DNA from: Roseibium sp.
Lineage (GTDB): Bacteria > Pseudomonadota > Alphaproteobacteria > Rhizobiales > Stappiaceae
Reading direction: 5' to 3'
Assembly (NCBI GenBank): GCA_017643215.1
Contig: JAEPNV010000002.1
Span: 62,001-126,000 of the forward strand
DNA: 64,000 nucleotides
Below the pieces are notes generated by a model that was not told where the DNA came from, made no database searches, and saw nothing but the letters and a program-made list of their open reading frames with translations. Position numbers and translations under genes: made by a program. Below are positions 34,470 to 41,601 of the stretch, piece after piece; positions within the stretch are counted from its first letter, which is position 1; each line of letters begins with the position of its first letter.

Positions 34470-34501
34470 ATATTTGGGGTACGCGCGGTTCGATTAATCA
34501 G

Positions 34502-34536
34502 CAAGAAACCTTAAGTTCTTGAGTGAAATTGTTTCA
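34502..34536. promoter_or_regulatory. Candidate repressor operators (two inverted repeats)
   Basis: CAAGAA-N8-TTCTTG (34502-34521) and TGAAATTGTTTCA (34524-34536) lie in tandem in the AT-rich region just upstream of the repressor start. They are natural candidates for binding by the XRE or TetR-like domain in autoregulation. The flanking 34470-34620 region is AT-rich and holds no gene. Confidence 0.5.
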
Positions 34537-34635
34537 TCCTTGGGTATGCAAATTCTATCCGGCATTTTGACAAGTATATTCAATCTTTACGAAATTTAGA
34601 TTAATACATGATGAACGCTACGGAAAATCGGGGGT

Positions 34636-34641
34636 TATAAT
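34636..34641 (+). promoter_or_regulatory. Consensus -10 element ahead of the structured RNA
   Basis: A perfect TATAAT on the plus strand, 19 bases before the 5' arm of the long hairpin, would place a transcript start near 34648. No good -35 is seen at 17 bases (GAACGC), so activation or an extended promoter would be needed. Confidence 0.35.
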
Positions 34642-34659
34642 TGACTATGGCGTTCTCCA

Positions 34660-34802
34660 CCCGCTTGGCAGGGCGCAGGAGGGCTGATCGGGCCCCCAGA
34701 ATAGGGCGCTAGCAAACACCGGGACTCCCCCAATGTAACCCTTGCCACCCTCTCGCGGATGGCGGCTTTGGAGCCTCCTGTTCCTGCGCCCAGCAAAGCG
34801 GG
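34660..34802 (+). ncRNA. Candidate structured RNA (long terminal stem)
   Basis: Two 21-base arms (34660-34680 and 34782-34802) are reverse complements in 19 of 21 positions and enclose about 100 bases. Inside, GCCACCC (34744-34750) pairs with GGATGGC (34757-34763), with one G-U pair. There is no protein-coding frame on either strand. The shape, a long closing stem around a partly paired interior, is that of a regulatory RNA. The strand is uncertain: a TATAAT favours plus, but read-through of the leftward operon would give the complementary fold. No known RNA family is recognised. Confidence 0.45.
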
Positions 34803-34811
34803 TCTTATAAG

Positions 34812-35069
34812 TCAGGTTTTGTTGGTCTGCATTTCAAGCCGTTCAAACGCAGGAAAATCGGGGTAATTCTCCTCTACCCAATCGGTCGCGCCATGATCTC
34901 GGGCAACCCCAACAGCGGCAATTAGTTTCTCACCAAGAATGCTGTTCGCCGCTCGCAGCAGTTCGATCTCATCAGCGGCAGCGCTGGTAAGCTGTGCTGT
35001 GTCTAAGTACTCGCCATCAGGCATTTGCGGCTCTGATGCTTGCCTTAGAGTGTCTACAAGACCATTCAT
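34812..35069 (-). CDS. Last gene of the leftward small-gene arm, unknown
   Basis: The 85-residue acidic helical product (start MNGLVDTLRQASEPQMPDG) has no family. The start codon is preceded by TGAGGCCCGGCG, the repeated arm leader. Its stop lies 10 bases from the structured-RNA stem. Confidence 0.6.
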   Translation of the reverse strand: MNGLVDTLRQASEPQMPDGEYLDTAQLTSAAADEIELLRAANSILGEKLIAAVGVARDHGATDWVEENYPDFPAFERLEMQTNKT

Positions 35070-35078
35070 CGCCGGGCC

Positions 35079-35444
35079 TCAGTTTGCGGGTTCGGAAGGT
35101 GAAAACGGGAATGGTAAATCGCTATCGCCAACCAGGGTCACATGCTCAAAAGCGCTAGCCGCTTCATCGGCTAATTCGGGATGGGCGCTGGGGTCGGTAG
35201 TCATGGCCCGGAGCGGAGAAATCTTTGCCCGAAAACCGACTTTCTCCAAAGCTTCCACGGCGCGCGGGGCGTCCTTCTCCGACACATGCCATTGAATATC
35301 GCGTTCGCTTGTAATCAGGTTGGTGCCGCGTCCGATGTCCTTATGCTCAAACGATTCCATGACGCCATCAGCGGCCTTGTCCATCATGAGCATGTTGTCG
35401 CCAGTGTTGATGTAGTAGGCGAACAGATTCACTTGTTTAGCCAT
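35079..35444 (-). CDS. Unknown protein in the leftward arm
   Basis: The 121-residue product (MAKQVNLFAYYINTGDNM at the start) is mixed alpha/beta with an acidic end and then SDLPFPFSP. Its leader is AAAGGAAATCAGTCT, which differs from the arm consensus, so it may have been acquired separately. An orphan arm leader with a tiny ORF lies just upstream (35491-35514). No family is recognised. Confidence 0.6.
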   Translation of the reverse strand: MAKQVNLFAYYINTGDNMLMMDKAADGVMESFEHKDIGRGTNLITSERDIQWHVSEKDAPRAVEALEKVGFRAKISPLRAMTTDPSAHPELADEAASAFEHVTLVGDSDLPFPFSPSEPAN

Positions 35445-35490
35445 AGACTGATTTCCTTTGACCTAGAAATTCGGTGTTTATTTCGTTTTT

Positions 35491-35514
35491 TCAGCGCCTT
35501 GGACTGATTTCCAT
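35491..35514 (-). other. Seven-codon ORF behind a full arm leader
   Basis: GGAAAGGCCCG is directly followed by an ATG at 35514 that opens only seven codons (MEISPRR) before a TGA. The following 45 bases reach the SD of the 35444 gene. Either it is a leader peptide that couples translation, or it is the scar of a deleted gene. Confidence 0.35.
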
Positions 35515-35529
35515 CGGGCCTTTCCTGTA

Positions 35530-35727
35530 TCAATGCGAGGCAAGGGTAAGAAGATCTTCGTGAAGCTGTTCAATGTCGCCTTCACGGATCATCAAAACCG
35601 GCGCGTCTTCTCGACCGCGAATAGTAATATGGCTGCCGTCAATCGAAAGAGTCCATTCGCGGGTGCTCTGACCTACGTCATCGTCATCGTCTCGCAAGAC
35701 TCGCTCTAATGTGATGCGTTTGGACAT
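35530..35727 (-). CDS. Small acidic protein in the leftward arm
   Basis: The 65-residue product has an Asp tract (VLRDDDDDVGQ) and a beta-rich core (WTLSIDGSHITIRG). Leader AGAAAGGCCCGTT precedes the ATG. No family is recognised. Confidence 0.55.
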   Translation of the reverse strand: MSKRITLERVLRDDDDDVGQSTREWTLSIDGSHITIRGREDAPVLMIREGDIEQLHEDLLTLASH

Positions 35728-35742
35728 AACGGGCCTTTCTGA

Positions 35743-35916
35743 TTACGCTCTCGTGTCCCAATCCTGCGTCGCCTTTTCAGGCGATAGCGCCTGCCGTCCG
35801 CGGTGCCCTTTGTTGCATTCGACGTGCCAGTATGGCCGCCGATACGGTCCACGCGACATAACCACGCGGCCGACCTTTCCGCAGAACGGGCAAGTCTTTT
35901 CGGGCTTATTCTGCAT
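35743..35916 (-). CDS. Lar-like restriction-alleviation protein
   Basis: The ATG at 35916, behind GGAAGGCCCGGCTC, gives 57 residues. TCPFCGKVGRVV at the start, HVECNKGHRG in the middle and ATQDWDTRA at the end follow the Lar family layout (CPFCG, a second Cys pair, and a terminal A...WN.R). Lar proteins weaken host type I restriction. The second zinc pair is incomplete, with Cys and His only, so this is a divergent member. Confidence 0.6.
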   Translation of the reverse strand: MQNKPEKTCPFCGKVGRVVMSRGPYRRPYWHVECNKGHRGRQALSPEKATQDWDTRA

Positions 35917-35933
35917 GAGCCGGGCCTTCCTGA

Positions 35934-36131
35934 TTACGTGCTCGGTGCTTCGATAAGTCCCGCCGCTTTGTGCCGTTCGACGGTTTCCCAGCTCAGGAGT
36001 TCGTCGGACAATTCCGGGTTCTCAGATTTGATCTTTTCGGCATAGGCCCGCATGGCGGCGCGAGACGCCTTTGAATAAGCGCTATCCCCGGCGGGTTTCA
36101 GCACAAAGTATTTCATCTGCAATCCAGTCAT
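35934..36131 (-). CDS. Small protein of the leftward arm, unknown
   Basis: The 65-residue basic, helical product (MTGLQMKYFVLKPAGD at the start) has no recognised domain. Leader TAGAGGCCCGTC lies upstream of the ATG. Confidence 0.55.
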   Translation of the reverse strand: MTGLQMKYFVLKPAGDSAYSKASRAAMRAYAEKIKSENPELSDELLSWETVERHKAAGLIEAPST

Positions 36132-36146
36132 GACGGGCCTCTATTG

Positions 36147-36335
36147 TTAAACAGGTTGACGGTTCCGGATTTTGGGGAATTCGCGCTCCCAATCTTCGCG
36201 GGTTTTCTCCCAAGCCTGACGCATCATTTCAGAACAATCGTTCGGGTGCATTTTGTGCTCTTGCCTCATTTCTTCCATCAAGACCCAAAGTTCATTTTCA
36301 AGGTCTGATCCAAGGCTGAGTTTTCGCAACGCCAT
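36147..36335 (-). CDS. Small helical protein of the leftward arm
   Basis: The 62-residue product is a likely helical hairpin (ENELWVLMEEMRQEHKMHP and CSEMMRQAWEKTREDWEREF). Leader TGAGGCCCGGATC precedes the ATG; the TGA of the leader is the upstream gene's stop. Unknown function. Confidence 0.55.
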   Translation of the reverse strand: MALRKLSLGSDLENELWVLMEEMRQEHKMHPNDCSEMMRQAWEKTREDWEREFPKIRNRQPV

Positions 36336-36345
36336 GATCCGGGCC

Positions 36346-36522
36346 TCATGAGCTACGTTCGACGGATAGCGCTAAGAGACCGCTTTTCAGGTCGTCTTCT
36401 AGCGCTTCAATAAGTCCCGGGGTGACTGTGCCCCATGGCGCATTTCTGAGGGCCGAGCGGGCAAAGTCCAAGACCTGGTCACGCGTTGGCTCTGCGACCA
36501 CCTCTATTGTTTTGCGTTCCAT
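36346..36522 (-). CDS. Small protein of the leftward arm, unknown
   Basis: An ATG at 36522 behind GGAAAGGCCCGATTA opens 58 codons (MERKTIEVVAEPTRDQ at the start), ending at the TGA that begins the next leader. Helical and acidic; no family is recognised. Confidence 0.5.
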   Translation of the reverse strand: MERKTIEVVAEPTRDQVLDFARSALRNAPWGTVTPGLIEALEDDLKSGLLALSVERSS

Positions 36523-36542
36523 TAATCGGGCCTTTCCTTCCG

Positions 36543-36752
36543 CTATTGCGGCCAGTGCATAACCAGCCAGTGGTTGCTCTCAATCTTCCAATGACACTCA
36601 TCGCCTGCGCCATCTTCGAACCACTCATCTTCTGGGACCCAATTGGCTTGTCTCCGCAGCTCGTGGGCCTGTTTTTTGTTGATGTCCAAGGTCATAGCGC
36701 CATTGAGAATAGTTATGCGCCTTGCTGCCTTTATGGCTTGAACCAGCGTCAT
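36543..36752 (-). CDS. Small protein of the leftward arm, unknown
   Basis: The 69-residue product starts MTLVQAIKAARRITILNG and has a Trp- and acid-rich end (DEWFEDGAGDECHWKIE). Leader TAGAGGCCCGGACG precedes the start. No family is recognised. Confidence 0.55.
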   Translation of the reverse strand: MTLVQAIKAARRITILNGAMTLDINKKQAHELRRQANWVPEDEWFEDGAGDECHWKIESNHWLVMHWPQ

Positions 36753-36763
36753 CGTCCGGGCCT

Positions 36764-36937
36764 CTATTTTCGTGTTGCCGGTTCTTCGAATGAGAGGCGC
36801 AGATATGCCGTTTTGTAGGCGTCTCCATCCTTCACCAAGACACCGCCGTACTCAGCATCTTTTGGCGCAATATCGCCGCGCTCTATGCAGCGCACGAGAT
36901 CGAATAACTTTTGCTTCAGCAGTCTCTCGACGTCCAT
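36764..36937 (-). CDS. Small protein of the leftward arm, unknown
   Basis: The ATG at 36937 directly follows GGAAAGGCCCGTT and gives 57 residues (MDVERLLKQKLFDLVRC at the start). A longer frame to 37009 exists, but the arm leader lies exactly before 36937. No family is recognised. Confidence 0.55.
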   Translation of the reverse strand: MDVERLLKQKLFDLVRCIERGDIAPKDAEYGGVLVKDGDAYKTAYLRLSFEEPATRK

Positions 36938-37060
36938 AACGGGCCTTTCCTTTCTTCCATTCTGGCGATGGCTGGCCTTGCTGATATTTCGGTTACACGG
37001 GGTTCCCATGCCCTCAGAACGTCGCCAGCAGCCGTCGTACTCCCTCCGGAACGGGCCTCA
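36938..37060 (-). other. Arm leader without a clear start codon
   Basis: TGAGGCCCG (37052-37060) follows the exonuclease stop, but no ATG or GTG stands at the usual distance. Two frames stay open towards 36937, one reading REYDGCWRRSEGMGTP. A gene with a non-standard start or a decayed gene is possible; neither can be supported. Confidence 0.3.
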
Positions 37061-37483
37061 GTTGTTACGGTTGCGTTCATGCCAGTCACGCAATGCGCGC
37101 GCGTCTGACAGGGCGTGGTGTGGTGTTTCGGGCCTTGGGTCGGTTTCCTTGAGAAGGACGAGCCTACAATCCACCATCCAACTATCTTTGTAGGACGGCC
37201 CGGTCATGAGCTTCATGAGGTGTTCAAAATCACCGGGCCAATCGGCGTAGATTGTGCAGCCTTCTCGCGCCTGCAAATACTCTCTTAGAAGAAAGCGGAG
37301 GTACGGGCGGATATACGCTCTTTCGTGGTCAAGATGGGGCACAACGTTCTTGGCAACCCAAGGGTCGTAGTGACCGAAGGGTGGCGCTTCTGCATAGAAA
37401 TCGTCGCCGTCAGGACCAGCCAAAGCGATAGAGATTAGGTCGCCACCATGGCCGTTAAATTCGGTGTCCAGATACAAGCGCAT
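37058..37483 (-). CDS. DEDDh-type 3'-5' exonuclease-like protein
   Basis: The ATG at 37483 behind GGAAGGCCCGGACGATC gives 141 residues. RLYLDTEFNG carries the first D-x-E, YADWPGDFEHLM holds the second acidic motif, and HHALSDARALRDWHE supplies the H-(x)5-D of DEDDh enzymes. Such proteins trim nucleic-acid 3' ends; in phages they may degrade host DNA or RNA or edit replication. An ATG upstream at 37522 is possible, but the arm leader favours 37483. Confidence 0.72.
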   Translation of the reverse strand: MRLYLDTEFNGHGGDLISIALAGPDGDDFYAEAPPFGHYDPWVAKNVVPHLDHERAYIRPYLRFLLREYLQAREGCTIYADWPGDFEHLMKLMTGPSYKDSWMVDCRLVLLKETDPRPETPHHALSDARALRDWHERNRNN

Positions 37484-37499
37484 GATCGTCCGGGCCTTC

Positions 37500-37631
37500 C
37501 TAGGCGTCTGAGGCGGCTTCAATCGCCGCCAAGAATTTGCCGATTTTCTCGCCAGTTTCTTCCGGCTCGAAAAACACCAACGCGCCGAAAATGATCAGTA
37601 TGACGGCTATCGTTTCCCAGAAGTATTTCAC
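37500..37631 (-). CDS. Small membrane protein of the leftward arm
   Basis: A GTG at 37631 behind GGAAGGCCCGGCCA opens 43 codons: one transmembrane segment (FWETIAVILIIFGALVFF) and a charged C-terminus (PEEETGEK-like region). A single-pass inner-membrane peptide; function unknown. Too short for ordinary ORF calling, but it has the arm leader and the neighbour spacing. Confidence 0.5.
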   Translation of the reverse strand: MKYFWETIAVILIIFGALVFFEPEETGEKIGKFLAAIEAASDA

Positions 37632-37647
37632 TGGCCGGGCCTTCCCC

Positions 37648-37824
37648 TTATGCTTCCATCTGAAGCGAGATGACACGCTTCAGACAGTCGTTGATCCACT
37701 TGACCTCTTTGTCGGTCGGGACCCGGTTGAACGCGACAATCAACGAGTTTGGCGGTATAGTGGCCCGCCCGACATGAATGCAGTCGAGTGGCGTTTTTCT
37801 TTGCATTGAGAGCACGTCTCTCAT
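37648..37824 (-). CDS. Small protein of the leftward arm, unknown
   Basis: An ATG at 37824 behind AGAGAGGCCCCGAC gives 58 residues (MRDVLSMQRKTPLDCIHVG at the start; KEVKWINDCLKRVI near the end). No family is recognised. The leader has one extra C. Confidence 0.5.
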   Translation of the reverse strand: MRDVLSMQRKTPLDCIHVGRATIPPNSLIVAFNRVPTDKEVKWINDCLKRVISLQMEA

Positions 37825-37839
37825 GGTCGGGGCCTCTCT

Positions 37840-38106
37840 TTATGCAGTGCGGCGCATATCAACATGCGCAAAAGGATCGGCGATTTTGGCGCAGCGCTTG
37901 CAACAGTCCGAATGTTCTGCCGCTTCCTTAATGTCGCACTCGTCAATTGTCAGATATTCAGAAGCATCACGGCCGCAAAGTGCGCGCGCCTCACCCATTT
38001 CAACAATGTGATAGGGGCTGCGAGACATCCCGCCGTCTTTGTGACCCGCGCCCTTTGGCGGGCCACGCCTGTCGCCGTGAACGCTGCACATGCGTTCGAT
38101 CTTCAT
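37840..38106 (-). CDS. Cys-rich protein of the leftward arm
   Basis: The ATG at 38106 behind TAGAGGCCCGGAC gives 88 residues with several cysteines (CSVHGDRRGPPKG, ALCGRDAS, DECDIK, SDCCKRCAK), suggesting zinc binding. A longer frame to 38136 would bypass the leader. No family is recognised. Confidence 0.6.
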   Translation of the reverse strand: MKIERMCSVHGDRRGPPKGAGHKDGGMSRSPYHIVEMGEARALCGRDASEYLTIDECDIKEAAEHSDCCKRCAKIADPFAHVDMRRTA

Positions 38107-38116
38107 GTCCGGGCCT

Positions 38117-38266
38117 CTATTTGTTGGTTGCACCACGGACGATTGTCCGGGCCAACATCAGGCATTGATTTGCGTAGGCAGCGTCATTTGTCCCGCCGCC
38201 CTGTTCTATTCGCGCAACCATGAAGCGCGCAGCCAGTTCGGCAATCAGCTTTTGTTCCTCGGACAT
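38117..38266 (-). CDS. Small helical protein of the leftward arm
   Basis: An ATG at 38266 behind GGAAAGGCCCGGC gives 49 residues (MSEEQKLIAELAARFMVAR at the start; CLMLARTIVRGATNK at the end). Its TAG stop forms part of the next leader. No family is recognised. Confidence 0.5.
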   Translation of the reverse strand: MSEEQKLIAELAARFMVARIEQGGGTNDAAYANQCLMLARTIVRGATNK

Positions 38267-38287
38267 GCCGGGCCTTTCCTAGCGGTG

Positions 38288-38536
38288 TTAGTGCTCGTCC
38301 AATTCAGGGCTTCCATCAGCCCCGATCCGGATTGTCCAAGACTTGAAGCCCTTGGCACACATTCCGCGCCAAATCGCATTCGCCATGAAGCCGTTTATCG
38401 CATCGCCGAAGTACCGTTCAGGCATCCACTCTGCGATCACCTTTTGCCGTGCCATATCTTCACCCGCGACGGTCAAGCTCGCTTGGGAGACCTTCCCGTC
38501 CGGCCATGTCACAAAGCTGATTGTCGCTCCTTCCAT
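38288..38536 (-). CDS. Small protein of the leftward arm, unknown
   Basis: The 82-residue product (MEGATISFVTWPDGKVSQAS at the start) is mixed alpha/beta. Its leader TAGAGGCTGGACCG is the most diverged copy in the arm. No family is recognised. Confidence 0.55.
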   Translation of the reverse strand: MEGATISFVTWPDGKVSQASLTVAGEDMARQKVIAEWMPERYFGDAINGFMANAIWRGMCAKGFKSWTIRIGADGSPELDEH

Positions 38537-38547
38537 CGGTCCAGCCT

Positions 38548-38754
38548 CTATTTTAGATATTTGCGAAGCTCTGTTTTGAATGAAGTGGATGCGTCATCTA
38601 CCCACTGATCCGCTTCTGATTGTGACATCCGTTTGCTGCTCACATCGCGGCGCGCGACGCCTCTAGCGAACGCCGTAAAAAGGAAAGTCGCTACCTCAAT
38701 GAATTTCCGTTCATTTTGGATCTCGGCTTTGACGTCGTCTGTATGGGCGCTCAT
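38548..38754 (-). CDS. Small helical protein of the leftward arm
   Basis: The ATG at 38754 behind TGAGGCCCCTTGAG gives 68 residues, helical and charged (DDVKAEIQNERKFIEVATFL). An ATG at 38769 is also possible, but it lies before the leader. Unknown function. Confidence 0.5.
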   Translation of the reverse strand: MSAHTDDVKAEIQNERKFIEVATFLFTAFARGVARRDVSSKRMSQSEADQWVDDASTSFKTELRKYLK

Positions 38755-38765
38755 CTCAAGGGGCC

Positions 38766-38921
38766 TCATGGTTTGAAGTTCGAAAGAATGAGGCGCAGGT
38801 CGCTCGGGACCATCCGGTCAAGGCAATCATCCCTCCGCGCAAACTCTTTCCATTGATCAATCGTTTTGACGATCCCGTCAGGGGTTCGAAGTGTCGGAAG
38901 ACGCGGTGCTTCTTGGCTCAT
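38766..38921 (-). CDS. First gene of the leftward arm, unknown
   Basis: The ATG at 38921, about 20 bases from the predicted transcript start, has GAAGGAA as SD and gives 51 residues (MSQEAPRLPTLRTPDGIV at the start; RMVPSDLRLILSNFKP at the end). Its leader is a normal SD; the AGGCCCG leaders begin with the next gene. Confidence 0.5.
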   Translation of the reverse strand: MSQEAPRLPTLRTPDGIVKTIDQWKEFARRDDCLDRMVPSDLRLILSNFKP

Positions 38922-38948
38922 CGACAGATTCCTTCAATCGTTAATGGC

Positions 38949-38977
38949 ATCTTAGTCCATTTGTCCCAGCAAGTCAA
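38949..38977 (-). promoter_or_regulatory. Leftward early promoter
   Basis: On the minus strand TTGACT (38972-38977) and TAAGAT (38949-38954) are exactly 17 bases apart, a near-consensus sigma-70 promoter. It would drive the whole leftward train of small genes. Confidence 0.8.
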
Positions 38978-39000
38978 TATAAATATCGATTTGTATTGAC
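38973..39000. promoter_or_regulatory. Operator overlapping both divergent -35 boxes
   Basis: A perfect inverted repeat GTCAATA-N14-TATTGAC covers most of the -35 hexamer of the leftward promoter on one side and of the rightward promoter on the other. One protein bound here would shut both. Candidates are the RHH protein at 39032 or the repressor at 33696. Confidence 0.65.
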
Positions 39001-39024
39001 ATTTGCGGACTCGTTTGTTATATG
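38996..39024 (+). promoter_or_regulatory. Rightward early promoter
   Basis: TTGACA (38996-39001) and TATATG (39019-39024) are 17 bases apart, a near-perfect sigma-70 promoter. The predicted start at about 39031 coincides with the ATG of the first gene, so its mRNA would be nearly leaderless. Confidence 0.8.
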
Positions 39025-39031
39025 CTTAACC

Positions 39032-39190
39032 ATGGAAATGGCACGCAGAAAAAAGATGGTCAGCTTCGCGCTAGACCCTGAGCTTTTGAAGAAGCTGGAT
39101 GAGTGGATAGCGGCGCAGGCAGTGCCGCCATCCAAAACCGCTGTCTTAGAAACTGCGCTTAAAAAATTTTTAGGGGTGCAGGATGGCTAG
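39032..39190 (+). CDS. Ribbon-helix-helix DNA-binding protein
   Basis: The ATG at 39032 (or 39038) gives 52 residues. KKMVSFALDPELLKKLDEWI, then PPSKTAVLETALKKFL, is a CopG/Arc ribbon-helix-helix. Its position on the divergent promoter suggests an autoregulator of both arms. It is read from an almost leaderless mRNA. Confidence 0.72.
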   Translation: MEMARRKKMVSFALDPELLKKLDEWIAAQAVPPSKTAVLETALKKFLGVQDG

Positions 39191-39623
39191 GCCCGGACGA
39201 ATTTACGTCATGGATATGGGAGGCGGGCTTTCAAAAGTCGGCTTTTCAGATAATCCAAACCGGCGATCAAGAACCTTGGGCGGGGTGCCTGTTCTTTATC
39301 AATCGGACTGGTCGTCGAATGCGGAACAGGTTGAAAAAGCTGCGCACGAAATACTCCGGCTTTCGGGGAAGCACGTTAAAAAAGAGCTGTTTAGCGTGGC
39401 GCTGCCAGATGCAATTGAGGCAATCGGATGCGCGCTGAAAAGCGTTGGGCAAGACGTTCACAAAGAGCCTCTCAAGTCATGCCGTGAAGAAAGAATAGTG
39501 GTCCCTTTAACGCTTAAAGAGCGCAAAGAACTTGGGGCGGCGGCGAGCAGGGTGGGGCTGAAGGTGAGCACTTACATCCGCATGAAAACGCTTGAGGCGA
39601 TACGCAAGCCTGAGCCTTCTTAG
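39183..39623 (+). CDS. GIY-YIG/T5orf172-like domain fused to RHH-like C-terminus
   Basis: The 146-residue product starts RIYVMDMGGGLSKVGFSDNP, which resembles T5orf172/GIY-YIG nucleases, with YVMD, KVGFS and the helix EQVEKAAHEILRL after it. The last 45 residues (VPLTLKERKELGAAASRVGL and STYIRMKTLEAI) look like a ribbon-helix-helix. It may be a sequence-targeted nuclease or a DNA-binding regulator. The start overlaps the preceding RHH gene by eight bases. The GIY-YIG Arg and Glu are not both clear. Confidence 0.62.
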   Translation: MARPGRIYVMDMGGGLSKVGFSDNPNRRSRTLGGVPVLYQSDWSSNAEQVEKAAHEILRLSGKHVKKELFSVALPDAIEAIGCALKSVGQDVHKEPLKSCREERIVVPLTLKERKELGAAASRVGLKVSTYIRMKTLEAIRKPEPS

Positions 39624-39733
39624 TGAAGACTTCACCTAGAACGAGGACGGCAAACCACGCTTTCCGAAGTTCAAGACATCAACATGGTACACGCTCAAGA
39701 ACTAGGGGCGTGTGAAATGAAGGAGCGCCGACA
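39624..39733 (+). other. Short intergenic segment
   Basis: No gene is visible. The last 15 bases are the first rightward arm leader, AAGGAGCGCCGACA, before the GTG at 39734. Confidence 0.5.
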
Positions 39734-39922
39734 GTGGAAATCAGAACTTTGGATCAAGTCAAGGCGGATATTGACGCGCAAATCAACGACGTAACGGATT
39801 ACTTATGCAGTCGCGGCGATACCCTTCACCTTCGCGATGAAGTCAAAGAGCGTACCCGGAAAGTGCTGTATGCGCTGGCGCTAAAAGGCTGGGTGGTTTC
39901 GAAAAAGAACCAAGAAAACTGA
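39734..39922 (+). CDS. Small protein of the rightward arm, unknown
   Basis: A GTG after AAGGAGCGCCGACA gives 62 residues (EIRTLDQVKADIDAQIND at the start), helical and charged. No family is recognised. Confidence 0.55.
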   Translation: MEIRTLDQVKADIDAQINDVTDYLCSRGDTLHLRDEVKERTRKVLYALALKGWVVSKKNQEN

Positions 39923-39933
39923 GGAGTGCCGGG

Positions 39934-40125
39934 ATGGTCACGTTGAAAACTTTTCAAGCGGTTATGCGTGGCGAGATATCTTCGGACAGGGCGCATCGGG
40001 CGATAGACCGACAGGAAAAACGCAAGGCCAAAGACAAGCAAGCCCGCAGGGCAGCAATAGAGCCGCCCGAGCCAGAATGTGACTGGCGACAGCTTGTAGT
40101 TTCTGAATGCGGCCGCGATTCATAA
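39934..40125 (+). CDS. Small basic protein of the rightward arm
   Basis: The ATG follows GAGGAGTGCCGGG and gives 63 residues, very basic in the middle (DRQEKRKAKDKQARRAA). Possible nucleic-acid binding; no family is recognised. Confidence 0.55.
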   Translation: MVTLKTFQAVMRGEISSDRAHRAIDRQEKRKAKDKQARRAAIEPPEPECDWRQLVVSECGRDS

Positions 40126-40137
40126 GGAGCAAATGCG

Positions 40138-40368
40138 GTGCCATCACCAATAGAGAAAATGATTGATGCCGCGTGTGGTGTGGCGCCTGGAGACTTCGTC
40201 ACGCTCCGTTGTTCAAAGTGCGAAAAGGAAATGCGCGCCCGGAAGGATGATACGGACCCTTTGGGAACAGTGGTTGTTGAGATCCAATGCCCGGATTGCA
40301 ATTCAGGCGATTTCGATAGTCCAGTCTATTTTGACGCGGACGGCTTGGAAATTCCGTTCGAAGAATAA
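40138..40368 (+). CDS. Zinc-ribbon-like protein of the rightward arm
   Basis: A GTG after AAGGAGCAAATGCG gives 76 residues with CSKCEKEM and CPDCNSGD, a zinc-ribbon-like pair 31 residues apart, and an acidic end (EIPFEE). An ATG in the leader is out of frame. No family is recognised. Confidence 0.55.
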   Translation: MPSPIEKMIDAACGVAPGDFVTLRCSKCEKEMRARKDDTDPLGTVVVEIQCPDCNSGDFDSPVYFDADGLEIPFEE

Positions 40369-40380
40369 GGAGCGCCGGAC

Positions 40381-40569
40381 GTGAACGACAACGATCACCT
40401 CAAGGTCCGACTGTTCGGTGAGCGAGTTTGGGCTAAGCGTCTGACTACAGAAGATCGAAAGTGGCTTGTCGAGATCGTCAATGAACCCGTTGGCTTTCTT
40501 CACAGCTATCAAAGAGGCAGCAAGCTATGGGTCCAGCCCGCCGATGACGGTTTGTGGATTCCGTGCTGA
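40381..40569 (+). CDS. Small protein of the rightward arm, unknown
   Basis: A GTG after AAGGAGCGCCGGAC gives 62 residues, rich in Trp and charged residues, with a beta-like layout (HLKVRLFGERVWAKRLT). No family is recognised; the pattern suggests a small immunity or regulatory protein. Confidence 0.55.
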   Translation: MNDNDHLKVRLFGERVWAKRLTTEDRKWLVEIVNEPVGFLHSYQRGSKLWVQPADDGLWIPC

Positions 40570-40589
40570 AATTATAGGATTGCCGACCG

Positions 40590-40787
40590 GTGCATTACAC
40601 CGAGGAACACTTTGACCGGATGGAATCCGACCCGGTTTTACGGCGCCAGTATTTCTGGCAAGTCGGGCAAAGTGCGCTTCTTCGTTCAGTGCAATATCGG
40701 AAAGAAGGGCGGCTTGAAGATGCTCAACGAGACGCATGGTTTGGCCGATGGGTTCTGGACAATATTGAAAGACTGATGGGTGAATGA
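40590..40787 (+). CDS. Small protein of the rightward arm, unknown
   Basis: A GTG at 40590 after AGGATTGCCGACCG gives 65 residues (HYTEEHFDRMESDPVLRRQY at the start), helical. The leader is a diverged copy. No family is recognised. Confidence 0.5.
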   Translation: MHYTEEHFDRMESDPVLRRQYFWQVGQSALLRSVQYRKEGRLEDAQRDAWFGRWVLDNIERLMGE

Positions 40788-40800
40788 AGGAGCGGCGAGA

Positions 40801-40998
40801 ATGATTGACCCAAAGAAACTGACCGATGAAGAGCTTGAGCTTTGCGCAATGGAGTACCGCTCACGAGATCTGGATAAGCCCCGCTGTCCCAACTGCGGTG
40901 GCGTCATAAAGGCATGGCACGTCCACATCTGTGATGATGCCGGCGGGGCGAATATCCCGATGGAGAGCGAAGCCGCCAAACAGCTTTGCCGCCTGTAA
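40801..40998 (+). CDS. Small protein with a Cys pair, rightward arm
   Basis: The ATG at 40801 follows AAGGAGCGGCGAGA, which fixes the start over an upstream ATG. The 65-residue product has one CPNCGGVIKAWHVH element and MIDPKKLTDEELELCAMEYR at the start; the Cys/His set could bind one zinc. No family is recognised. Confidence 0.6.
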   Translation: MIDPKKLTDEELELCAMEYRSRDLDKPRCPNCGGVIKAWHVHICDDAGGANIPMESEAAKQLCRL

Positions 40999-41014
40999 AT
41001 GTAGGAGCGCCGGG

Positions 41015-41290
41015 ATGGGCGCATGGATTGAGCTTCGAAAGAACGAAACAGGCGAAATCAGACGCCATCGCGATGATTACTTTGAGTCGTCGCCGGACAG
41101 AGAGTCTGATTACATTTGGACTGAGGGCAACTATGCCTGCGACTGCAACAGGGCTCTGTTTTTCGCGAGGGCGCATAATGAGCCAGACCCCGACGTTGAA
41201 TGTGGTGATGCCGCTTATGCGGCGATAAGGGCTATCTGTGACGACGGGACCATCATTATGCTTGATGATGATAGTGGGTCAGAAACTTAA
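41015..41290 (+). CDS. Small acidic protein of the rightward arm
   Basis: The ATG at 41015 follows TAGGAGCGCCGGG and gives 91 residues (MGAWIELRKNETGEIRR at the start), ending in an acidic tract (IIMLDDDSGSET). A longer upstream frame would overlap the neighbouring gene without a leader. No family is recognised. Confidence 0.55.
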   Translation: MGAWIELRKNETGEIRRHRDDYFESSPDRESDYIWTEGNYACDCNRALFFARAHNEPDPDVECGDAAYAAIRAICDDGTIIMLDDDSGSET

Positions 41291-41302
41291 GGAGCCGTAG
41301 GG

Positions 41303-41590
41303 ATGGCTAGAGATGAAGAACAAGAGGCGGCGTTTGCGCTGAGCGACTTGTTAAGCTCTGCAATGTTCCAGGCATACAACAACGGAGAAAACGCGCGGAC
41401 GTATCTTTATGGCTGGGAGCGGCGAGGGTTTCGTTGGTTGTTTAGATTTAAAGAGCGGTGTCCAGATGGCATGCTTGGCAATGCGTGGACAGCAGATTTC
41501 ATGAATCTAAACCGCGACGCCATTCTATCAGAAGATGGTCGAATGGATTTCAATCTGAGAACAGCGCGAGAGAATGGCGTAATCAAATAA
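41303..41590 (+). CDS. Small protein of the rightward arm, unknown
   Basis: The 95-residue product, behind AAGGAGCCGTAGGG, begins MARDEEQEAAFALSDLLS and has YGWERRGFRWLFRFKERCP in the middle. No family is recognised. It is the second-last gene of the arm. Confidence 0.55.
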   Translation: MARDEEQEAAFALSDLLSSAMFQAYNNGENARTYLYGWERRGFRWLFRFKERCPDGMLGNAWTADFMNLNRDAILSEDGRMDFNLRTARENGVIK

Positions 41591-41601
41591 GGAGCGCCGG
41601 T

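Follow-up and report, generated by a model that had tools for sequence, protein, structure and literature searches.

The window analysed here, 64,000 nt of Roseibium sp. contig JAEPNV010000002.1, contains a P22-like prophage that extends up to about 42 kb and is recognised by its P22-type portal and coat proteins; the genes beyond this point appear to belong to the host (judged by eye). The prophage terminase shows 72% identity to Rhizobium phages. In a leftward arm of 17 small genes most start codons are preceded by the short leader AGGCCCG. Fourteen of the 16 intergenic gaps measure 9-21 nt, so that a gap is hardly more than the leader itself. Comparison of the arm proteins with PHROGs (17 of 17) and Pfam (10 of 17) revealed an exonuclease-like gene, a Lar-like gene and one match to phrog_9572, and no other. 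The features are as follows.

34812-38921, minus strand: leftward arm, 17 small genes
38766-38921, minus strand: first gene of the arm, 51 aa, start without leader
38760-38766, minus strand: leader AGGCCCC, overlapped by the TGA of the upstream gene, before the start at 38754
38541-38547, minus strand: leader variant AGGCTGG, TAG ahead, before 38536
38269-38275, minus strand: leader AGGCCCG before 38266
38110-38116, minus strand: leader AGGCCCG, TAG ahead, before 38106
37829-37835, minus strand: leader AGGCCCC before 37824
37636-37642, minus strand: leader AGGCCCG before the GTG start at 37631
37491-37497, minus strand: leader AGGCCCG before 37483 (gene 37058-37483, phrog_2259, RNase H/exonuclease-like)
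37129-37135, minus strand: AGGCCCG-type copy within the exonuclease-like gene
37052-37058, minus strand: orphan leader, followed by a leader-to-leader remnant of a small gene
36950-37058, minus strand: the remnant of a small gene, with a relative at G000:C13:58227-58335 (contig C13 of the same genome)
36940-36946, minus strand: leader AGGCCCG before 36937
36757-36763, minus strand: leader AGGCCCG, TAG, before 36752; the surrounding 21 bp are identical to a leader region of G215
36527-36533, minus strand: leader AGGCCCG before 36522
36340-36346, minus strand: leader AGGCCCG, TGA overlapping, before 36335
36134-36140, minus strand: leader AGGCCCG, TAG, before 36131
35921-35927, minus strand: leader AGGCCCG in the form TAATCAGGA, before 35916 (Lar-like gene 35743-35916)
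35730-35736, minus strand: leader AGGCCCG in the form GCGTAATCAGAA, before 35727; the long form also occurs in G215, G466 and G467
35515-35521, minus strand: orphan leader abutting the ATG of a 7-codon frame
35073-35079, minus strand: leader AGGCCCG, TGA overlapping, before 35069
38949-38977, minus strand: predicted sigma-70-like promoter (TTGACT, 17 nt, TAAGAT) ahead of the arm, a consensus match only
39722-41599, plus strand: rightward small-gene arm with its own leader, AGGAGCGCCG

The minus strand of positions 34812-38766 carries 18 leader-like copies, 15 AGGCCCG, two AGGCCCC and one AGGCTGG. Fifteen are located 2-7 nt ahead of a start codon (14 ATG, one GTG), and 12 of these are exact AGGCCCG; the copies at 37129-37135, 37052-37058 and 35515-35521 are not at gene starts. 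The preceding bases are TG(A), TAG and GGAA in four copies each, GGA in three and others in three. The last of the orphan copies lies in a region (35446-35521) that contains the leader and the 7-codon frame and in which the 11-mer GGAAATCAGTC occurs twice, about 56 nt apart (by eye); this region is possibly the scar of a lost gene.

Comparison with 2000 dinucleotide shuffles of the arm demonstrated a strong enrichment. AGGCCCG occurs 15 times on the sense strand (shuffle mean 0.37, maximum 4) and once on the antisense strand, and AGGCCC[CG] followed by ATG or GTG 2-8 nt later was counted 14 times (shuffle mean 0.16, maximum 3; antisense 0). With the starts as chosen, AGGCCC is present within 22 nt upstream of 14 of the 17 genes and AGGCTGG upstream of one more, leaving two genes with neither, the first (38921) and that at 35444. 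Five of the 17 starts were set downstream of the first possible in-frame start with the motif known beforehand; if the first possible starts are taken, nine of the 17 genes have AGGCCC. In 400 kb of host DNA only 8 of 99 copies of AGGCCCG precede an ATG or GTG frame of at least 40 codons, compared with 12 of 15 in the arm (p 8e-9). This contrast disappears with a limit of 100 codons (arm 1/15, host 2/99) because the arm genes are short. Elsewhere in the prophage, including the antisense strand of the arm, one of 12 copies precedes a start, and among 99 mechanically called rightward open reading frames (ORFs) of at least 60 aa in window 1-33700 none had the leader before a start in its first half. 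The scarcity of AGGCCCG before starts in the host sample and in the rest of the prophage marks it as a feature of the leftward-arm operon. An unbiased count of 7-mers with a mechanical gene caller gave a strong signal of AGGCCCG for the window alone (9 of 27 minus-strand genes); in phage regions described below the same count returned AAAGGCC or GAAAGGC, in four genes each, in G215, G464 and G465, AGAAAGG, the upstream part, in G466, and no part of the leader in G468.

A start-associated leader in this arm had been proposed in an earlier note, and its existence and its excess over shuffled sequence are confirmed; in the host sample it is not the usual sequence at gene starts. TGA overlaps the leaders at 38760, 36340 and 35073 and TAG stands ahead of others. 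The figure of 16 or more copies at starts came down to 12 exact copies, or 15 with variants, and the spacing of 3-10 bases to 2-7 nt.

We examined other phages for similar arrays. RHph_N2, RHph_Y25 and RHph_N3_2, which are among the structurally nearest phages, contain 4-9 copies of AGGCCCG each and no start-associated cluster. Arrays were found in six other regions, namely a prophage-like region in a genome of the same genus (G215, locus L454; 15 selected leaders) and five IMG/VR contigs (G464-G468; 4-9 selected leaders each). For the refuting condition named in the earlier note, absence of conservation in related phages, the outcome is mixed: the array is missing from the three structurally closest phages fetched and present in others. 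Together with the window the seven regions provide 62 selected leaders; only sites within array intervals were used, five in-gene candidates were removed by hand and a few looser forms (AGGTCC) were admitted. The 7-base core of these leaders is much better conserved than the flanks. Core positions 1-6 are partly fixed by the selection pattern; the seventh, which is free of selection, is G in 47 of 62 leaders. The A/G-rich bases immediately upstream of the core reach 0.4-0.75 bits. Within the arrays 49 of 69 genes have the leader and outside them 1 of 108, a difference that is partly circular as the intervals beyond the window were picked by motif.

The genes behind the leaders differ between regions. 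No arm protein of the window matched a protein near the other six arrays (BLASTP 1e-3), and G215 and G467 have some genes in common. Sixteen of the 19 exact matches of at least 18 bp between the seven regions (array strand) include the leader, and the longest of the 16, with 27 bp, spans the upstream stop codon, the start codon and flanking codons. These 16 are not independent, as the long form CGTAATCAGAAAGGCCCG is counted in several pairs; the window and G215 share a second form, AAATAGAGGCCCGGACGATGA, and G465 and G468 share AATAGAGGCCCGACAGATG. The leader-containing matches run on past the stop codon within the upstream gene, or reach the first codons, which is more than ribosome binding requires.

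Viral contigs gave six stretches with the long form TAATCRGRAAGGCCCG followed by ATG, of which two (L450, L452) belong to arrays; the 19 stretches in genome contigs include no array and have at most three scattered sites (L437, L441), contexts being available for seven of the 19. TMRGAAAGGCCCG followed by ATG occurs in 12 of 87 family genomes, with neighbouring copies only in G000 (two) and G215 (three). Short-motif scans of IMG/VR list mostly chance matches: of 15 clusters inspected among the matches listed, three are real (L166, L391, L336), and the other 12 were rejected by eye as repeats or scattered in-gene copies. Pattern counts in 199, 87 and 397 relatives are dominated by single GC-rich matches and do not serve as evidence; the reversed-pattern control is no fair null. 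Nine relatives of the exonuclease-like protein have no array, the highest number being three start-associated sites, which span 3.4 kb of L174. Viral contigs gave no relative of two arm proteins, one G467 protein had no match in the phage collection, and the arm DNA matched this collection in a single stretch of 61 bp. The G215 array also contains an orphan leader, GCGTAATCAGAAAGGCCC, with no start codon after it (L166, reverse complement 2324). Furthermore, L454 (reverse complement 17696) and L476 (65) have in common an identical stretch of 49 bp that resembles the 3' end of a tRNA and may be an attachment site shared by two leader-bearing phages.

Two loci bear putative footprints of rearrangement at or close to the leader. 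G464 contains a perfect repeat of 212 bp (206-bp unit) that opens with the AGGCCC of one leader and closes with the AGGCCC of another. It duplicates one whole gene of 64 aa, and the middle leader is a hybrid with the left flank of one and the right flank of the other. In a paralogous gene pair of G464 the copy within the array has the AGGCCCG leader and the copy outside an AGGAG start. The second locus is the remnant at 36950-37058 in the window, which occupies a gap of 120 nt. Its relative on C13 is a frame of 44 codons (KKDPFRREDDGCWRRSEGMGAPWCQNISKASHRRDGRK), and the similarity begins at the CCCG of the leader in one alignment and three bases earlier in another. The start codon is absent from the window copy, which may have been cut at the leader. 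Related loci are L168 1483-1617 and L179 7721-7778, and a weaker match of 59 bp is found in G222. On the sequence level, the two junctions are suggestive of a tie between the leader and gene shuffling.

Other start leaders exist beside AGGCCCG. The rightward arm has four exact copies of AGGAGCGCCG (shuffle mean 0.012), and the looser GGAG[CT]G[CG]CG before ATG or GTG occurs there six times in all (shuffle mean 0.021). The leftward and rightward arms thus use different leaders within a single prophage, so that a leader belongs to its operon and more than the host ribosome determines its sequence. By plain count a third leader, CCACGGAG, precedes eight starts in G467, in six of them with CAG in front, at sites in L511 (1532-17293) and L479 (3007) with frames of 86-508 codons; a variant is located at L509 2316. 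G467 carries both this leader and AGGCCCG, and the unbiased 7-mer count gave enriched words there.

We favour, with confidence and doubt in about equal measure, the reading of AGGCCCG as a ribosome-binding linker doubling as a cassette joint. A single early mRNA probably covers the leftward arm. Across most gaps the linker lies at the upstream stop or immediately after it and offers a Shine-Dalgarno part (GAAAGG or GAGG), then CCCG and, 2-7 nt further on, the start codon. Judged from this anatomy, each small ORF might be an independent 'linker plus ORF' cassette usable by host ribosomes. As copies of the linker are repeated through the operon and occur in other phages, they could serve as short homology for cassette duplication, loss and exchange, of which the two rearranged loci may be footprints. 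A recombination hot spot was among the roles that the earlier note had considered for CCCG, and the two footprints lend this option suggestive evidence. Two causes might together keep CCCG conserved, repeated joining within the core and a preference for certain sequences when translation starts.

Several results weigh against this interpretation. Only two junctions were seen, and that of G464 belongs to a metagenome contig that is possibly misassembled. For homologous recombination a stretch of seven bases is short. The flanks of the linkers are barely more similar within arrays (0.357) than between them (0.335; permutation p 0.014, mainly from L454 and L480), and in the window and L479 they are even less similar within the array than between, giving little sign of concerted copying. 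Finally, the pairing of the linker is calculated with the general alphaproteobacterial 16S rRNA tail in place of one read from the present genome.

A translational regulon, in which AGGCCCG at the ribosome-binding site is bound by a phage or host RNA-binding protein or by a small RNA that turns all genes of the arm on or off, is a tentative alternative that we consider improbable. RegA, which controls early messages of phage T4, is an analogy. The better conservation of the core than of its flanks, the occurrence of one core ahead of different genes, and the different leaders on the two arms, as for separate regulons, would all be accounted for. A common regulator was not evident: the widest protein family is common to three of the seven regions (BLASTP 1e-5, ORFs of at least 40 aa, fetched parts; distant relatives could escape), and the window contains no Rfam match at gathering scores. 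DUF3310, which has been suggested for the start-associated sequences (SAS) of actinophages (PMC11373665), was found in none of the seven regions by a search that, being blank in every control genome too, carries no weight.

Somewhat less probable still, and in our view unlikely, is a plain good ribosome-binding site in which GAAAGG or GAGG is joined to a non-pairing C-rich spacer fixing the register, under selection for uniform strong translation only. The alphaproteobacterial 16S tail is CCUUUCU. With this tail 6-7 nt of the GGAAAGG and AGAAAGG copies are able to pair, more than the AGG to which the earlier note had restricted the match. Consistent with a strong site, the mean pairing of the leaders is -8.1 kcal, compared with -6.4 kcal for 285 mechanically called host starts. 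CCCG contributes almost no pairing (index 221 of 0-255, counted from the strongest tetramer). GAAAGG or GAGG thus accounts for ribosome binding and CCCG does not, so that the conservation of CCCG calls for another explanation; an RNA-binding factor, one of the roles considered in the earlier note, would be no more than a candidate. An inert spacer would fit this result, and CCC directly follows the Shine-Dalgarno sequence in the SAS of two actinophage groups as well (PMC3203893, PMC7302621). However, CCCG is one of 44 tetramers out of 256 with equally weak or almost equally weak pairing, and it does not raise start accessibility (0.46 compared with 0.49 with random tetramers). Moreover, host genes and other genes of the prophage rarely use the leader, and the adjoining rightward arm uses another one. 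A chance effect of GC-rich composition, to which the 21 of 36 window copies outside the sense strand of the arm and the frequency of the motif in relatives might point, is refuted by the arm, shuffle and host counts and has practically no probability left.

Extending the preferred reading of a linker and cassette joint beyond this operon is speculative, and we regard the following generalisation as doubtful. Operon-specific start leaders such as AGGCCCG, AGGAGCGCCG and CCACGGAG might be standard joints of alphaproteobacterial phages, between which small host-takeover genes move, duplicate and vanish as leader-to-leader units. Such a system would resemble integron cassettes, except that the ribosome-binding site serves as the joint and no dedicated integrase takes part.

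The predicted promoter ahead of the arm is called from its position, because 34500-39300 contains no more sigma-70-like sites than shuffles (2 found, 2.8 in shuffles). An imperfect inverted repeat, GTCAATA...TATTGAC at 38973-39000, overlaps this promoter-like site between the divergent arms (by eye) and is a possible candidate operator.

The closest known systems are the SAS of actinophages. In cluster K mycobacteriophages the SAS is GGGATAGGAGCCC (PMC3203893). According to this source, 11-19 copies per genome lie typically 3-7 bp ahead of starts, mostly in one orientation and in the non-structural half of the genome, combine a Shine-Dalgarno core with conserved bases unpaired with 16S rRNA, and in some sites include the upstream stop codon. 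The present leader behaves alike: 18 copies in the arm and 4-15 in the six other arrays form a short asymmetric repeat, placed a few nucleotides upstream of starts, oriented with the genes, restricted to the non-structural part and composed of a pairing and a non-pairing portion. It differs in host group and also in sequence, the latter as the earlier note had recognised in comparing the two in concept. Cluster K sites are found mostly at gaps of more than 50 bp (PMC3203893), whereas the present leader fills gaps of 9-21 nt, is common to phages with different genes and is tied to two gene-level junctions. The SAS of Microbacterium cluster EF is GGGAAAGGACCCC (PMC7302621); its ten copies at ribosome-binding sites contain GAAAGG and then CCC, close to GGAAAGGCCCG, but the host is an actinobacterium and a weakly conserved extended SAS (ESAS) is linked upstream. 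Putative promoters have been reported in ESAS, and the role of SAS is given as not known (PMC11373665). In cluster K the ESAS is an imperfect inverted repeat of 17 bp that accompanies a subset of the sites. The best inverted repeat of 17 bp in the 75 nt upstream of 15 window leaders has 8-12 of 17 positions paired (control mean 9.4, maximum 12), so that no ESAS of the cluster K type, the type to which this measure applies, was found. Lambdoid nin regions are likewise dense with small genes whose stop/start junctions follow a fixed pattern, but these junctions are overlapping ATGA motifs with no repeated 7-base leader (PMC8022706). A literature search for AGGCCCG in phages, start-associated sequences and small-gene leaders of Rhizobium phages found no report of this leader among the papers listed, which is weak evidence of absence. 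AGGCCCG is a true start-associated leader that works like an SAS; with its own core, a variable upstream part and neither of the two SAS consensus sequences nor the extended inverted repeat, it is not filed as a member. SAS have stayed unexplained in two actinophage groups since 2011 (PMC3203893, PMC7302621, PMC11373665). The present case lies outside these groups: a different sequence stands before different genes in seven phages or prophage-like regions, and there are gene junctions at the leader. It offers a simple tag by which arrays of small phage genes can be searched for, and a testable link between translation signals and gene shuffling in phage early operons.

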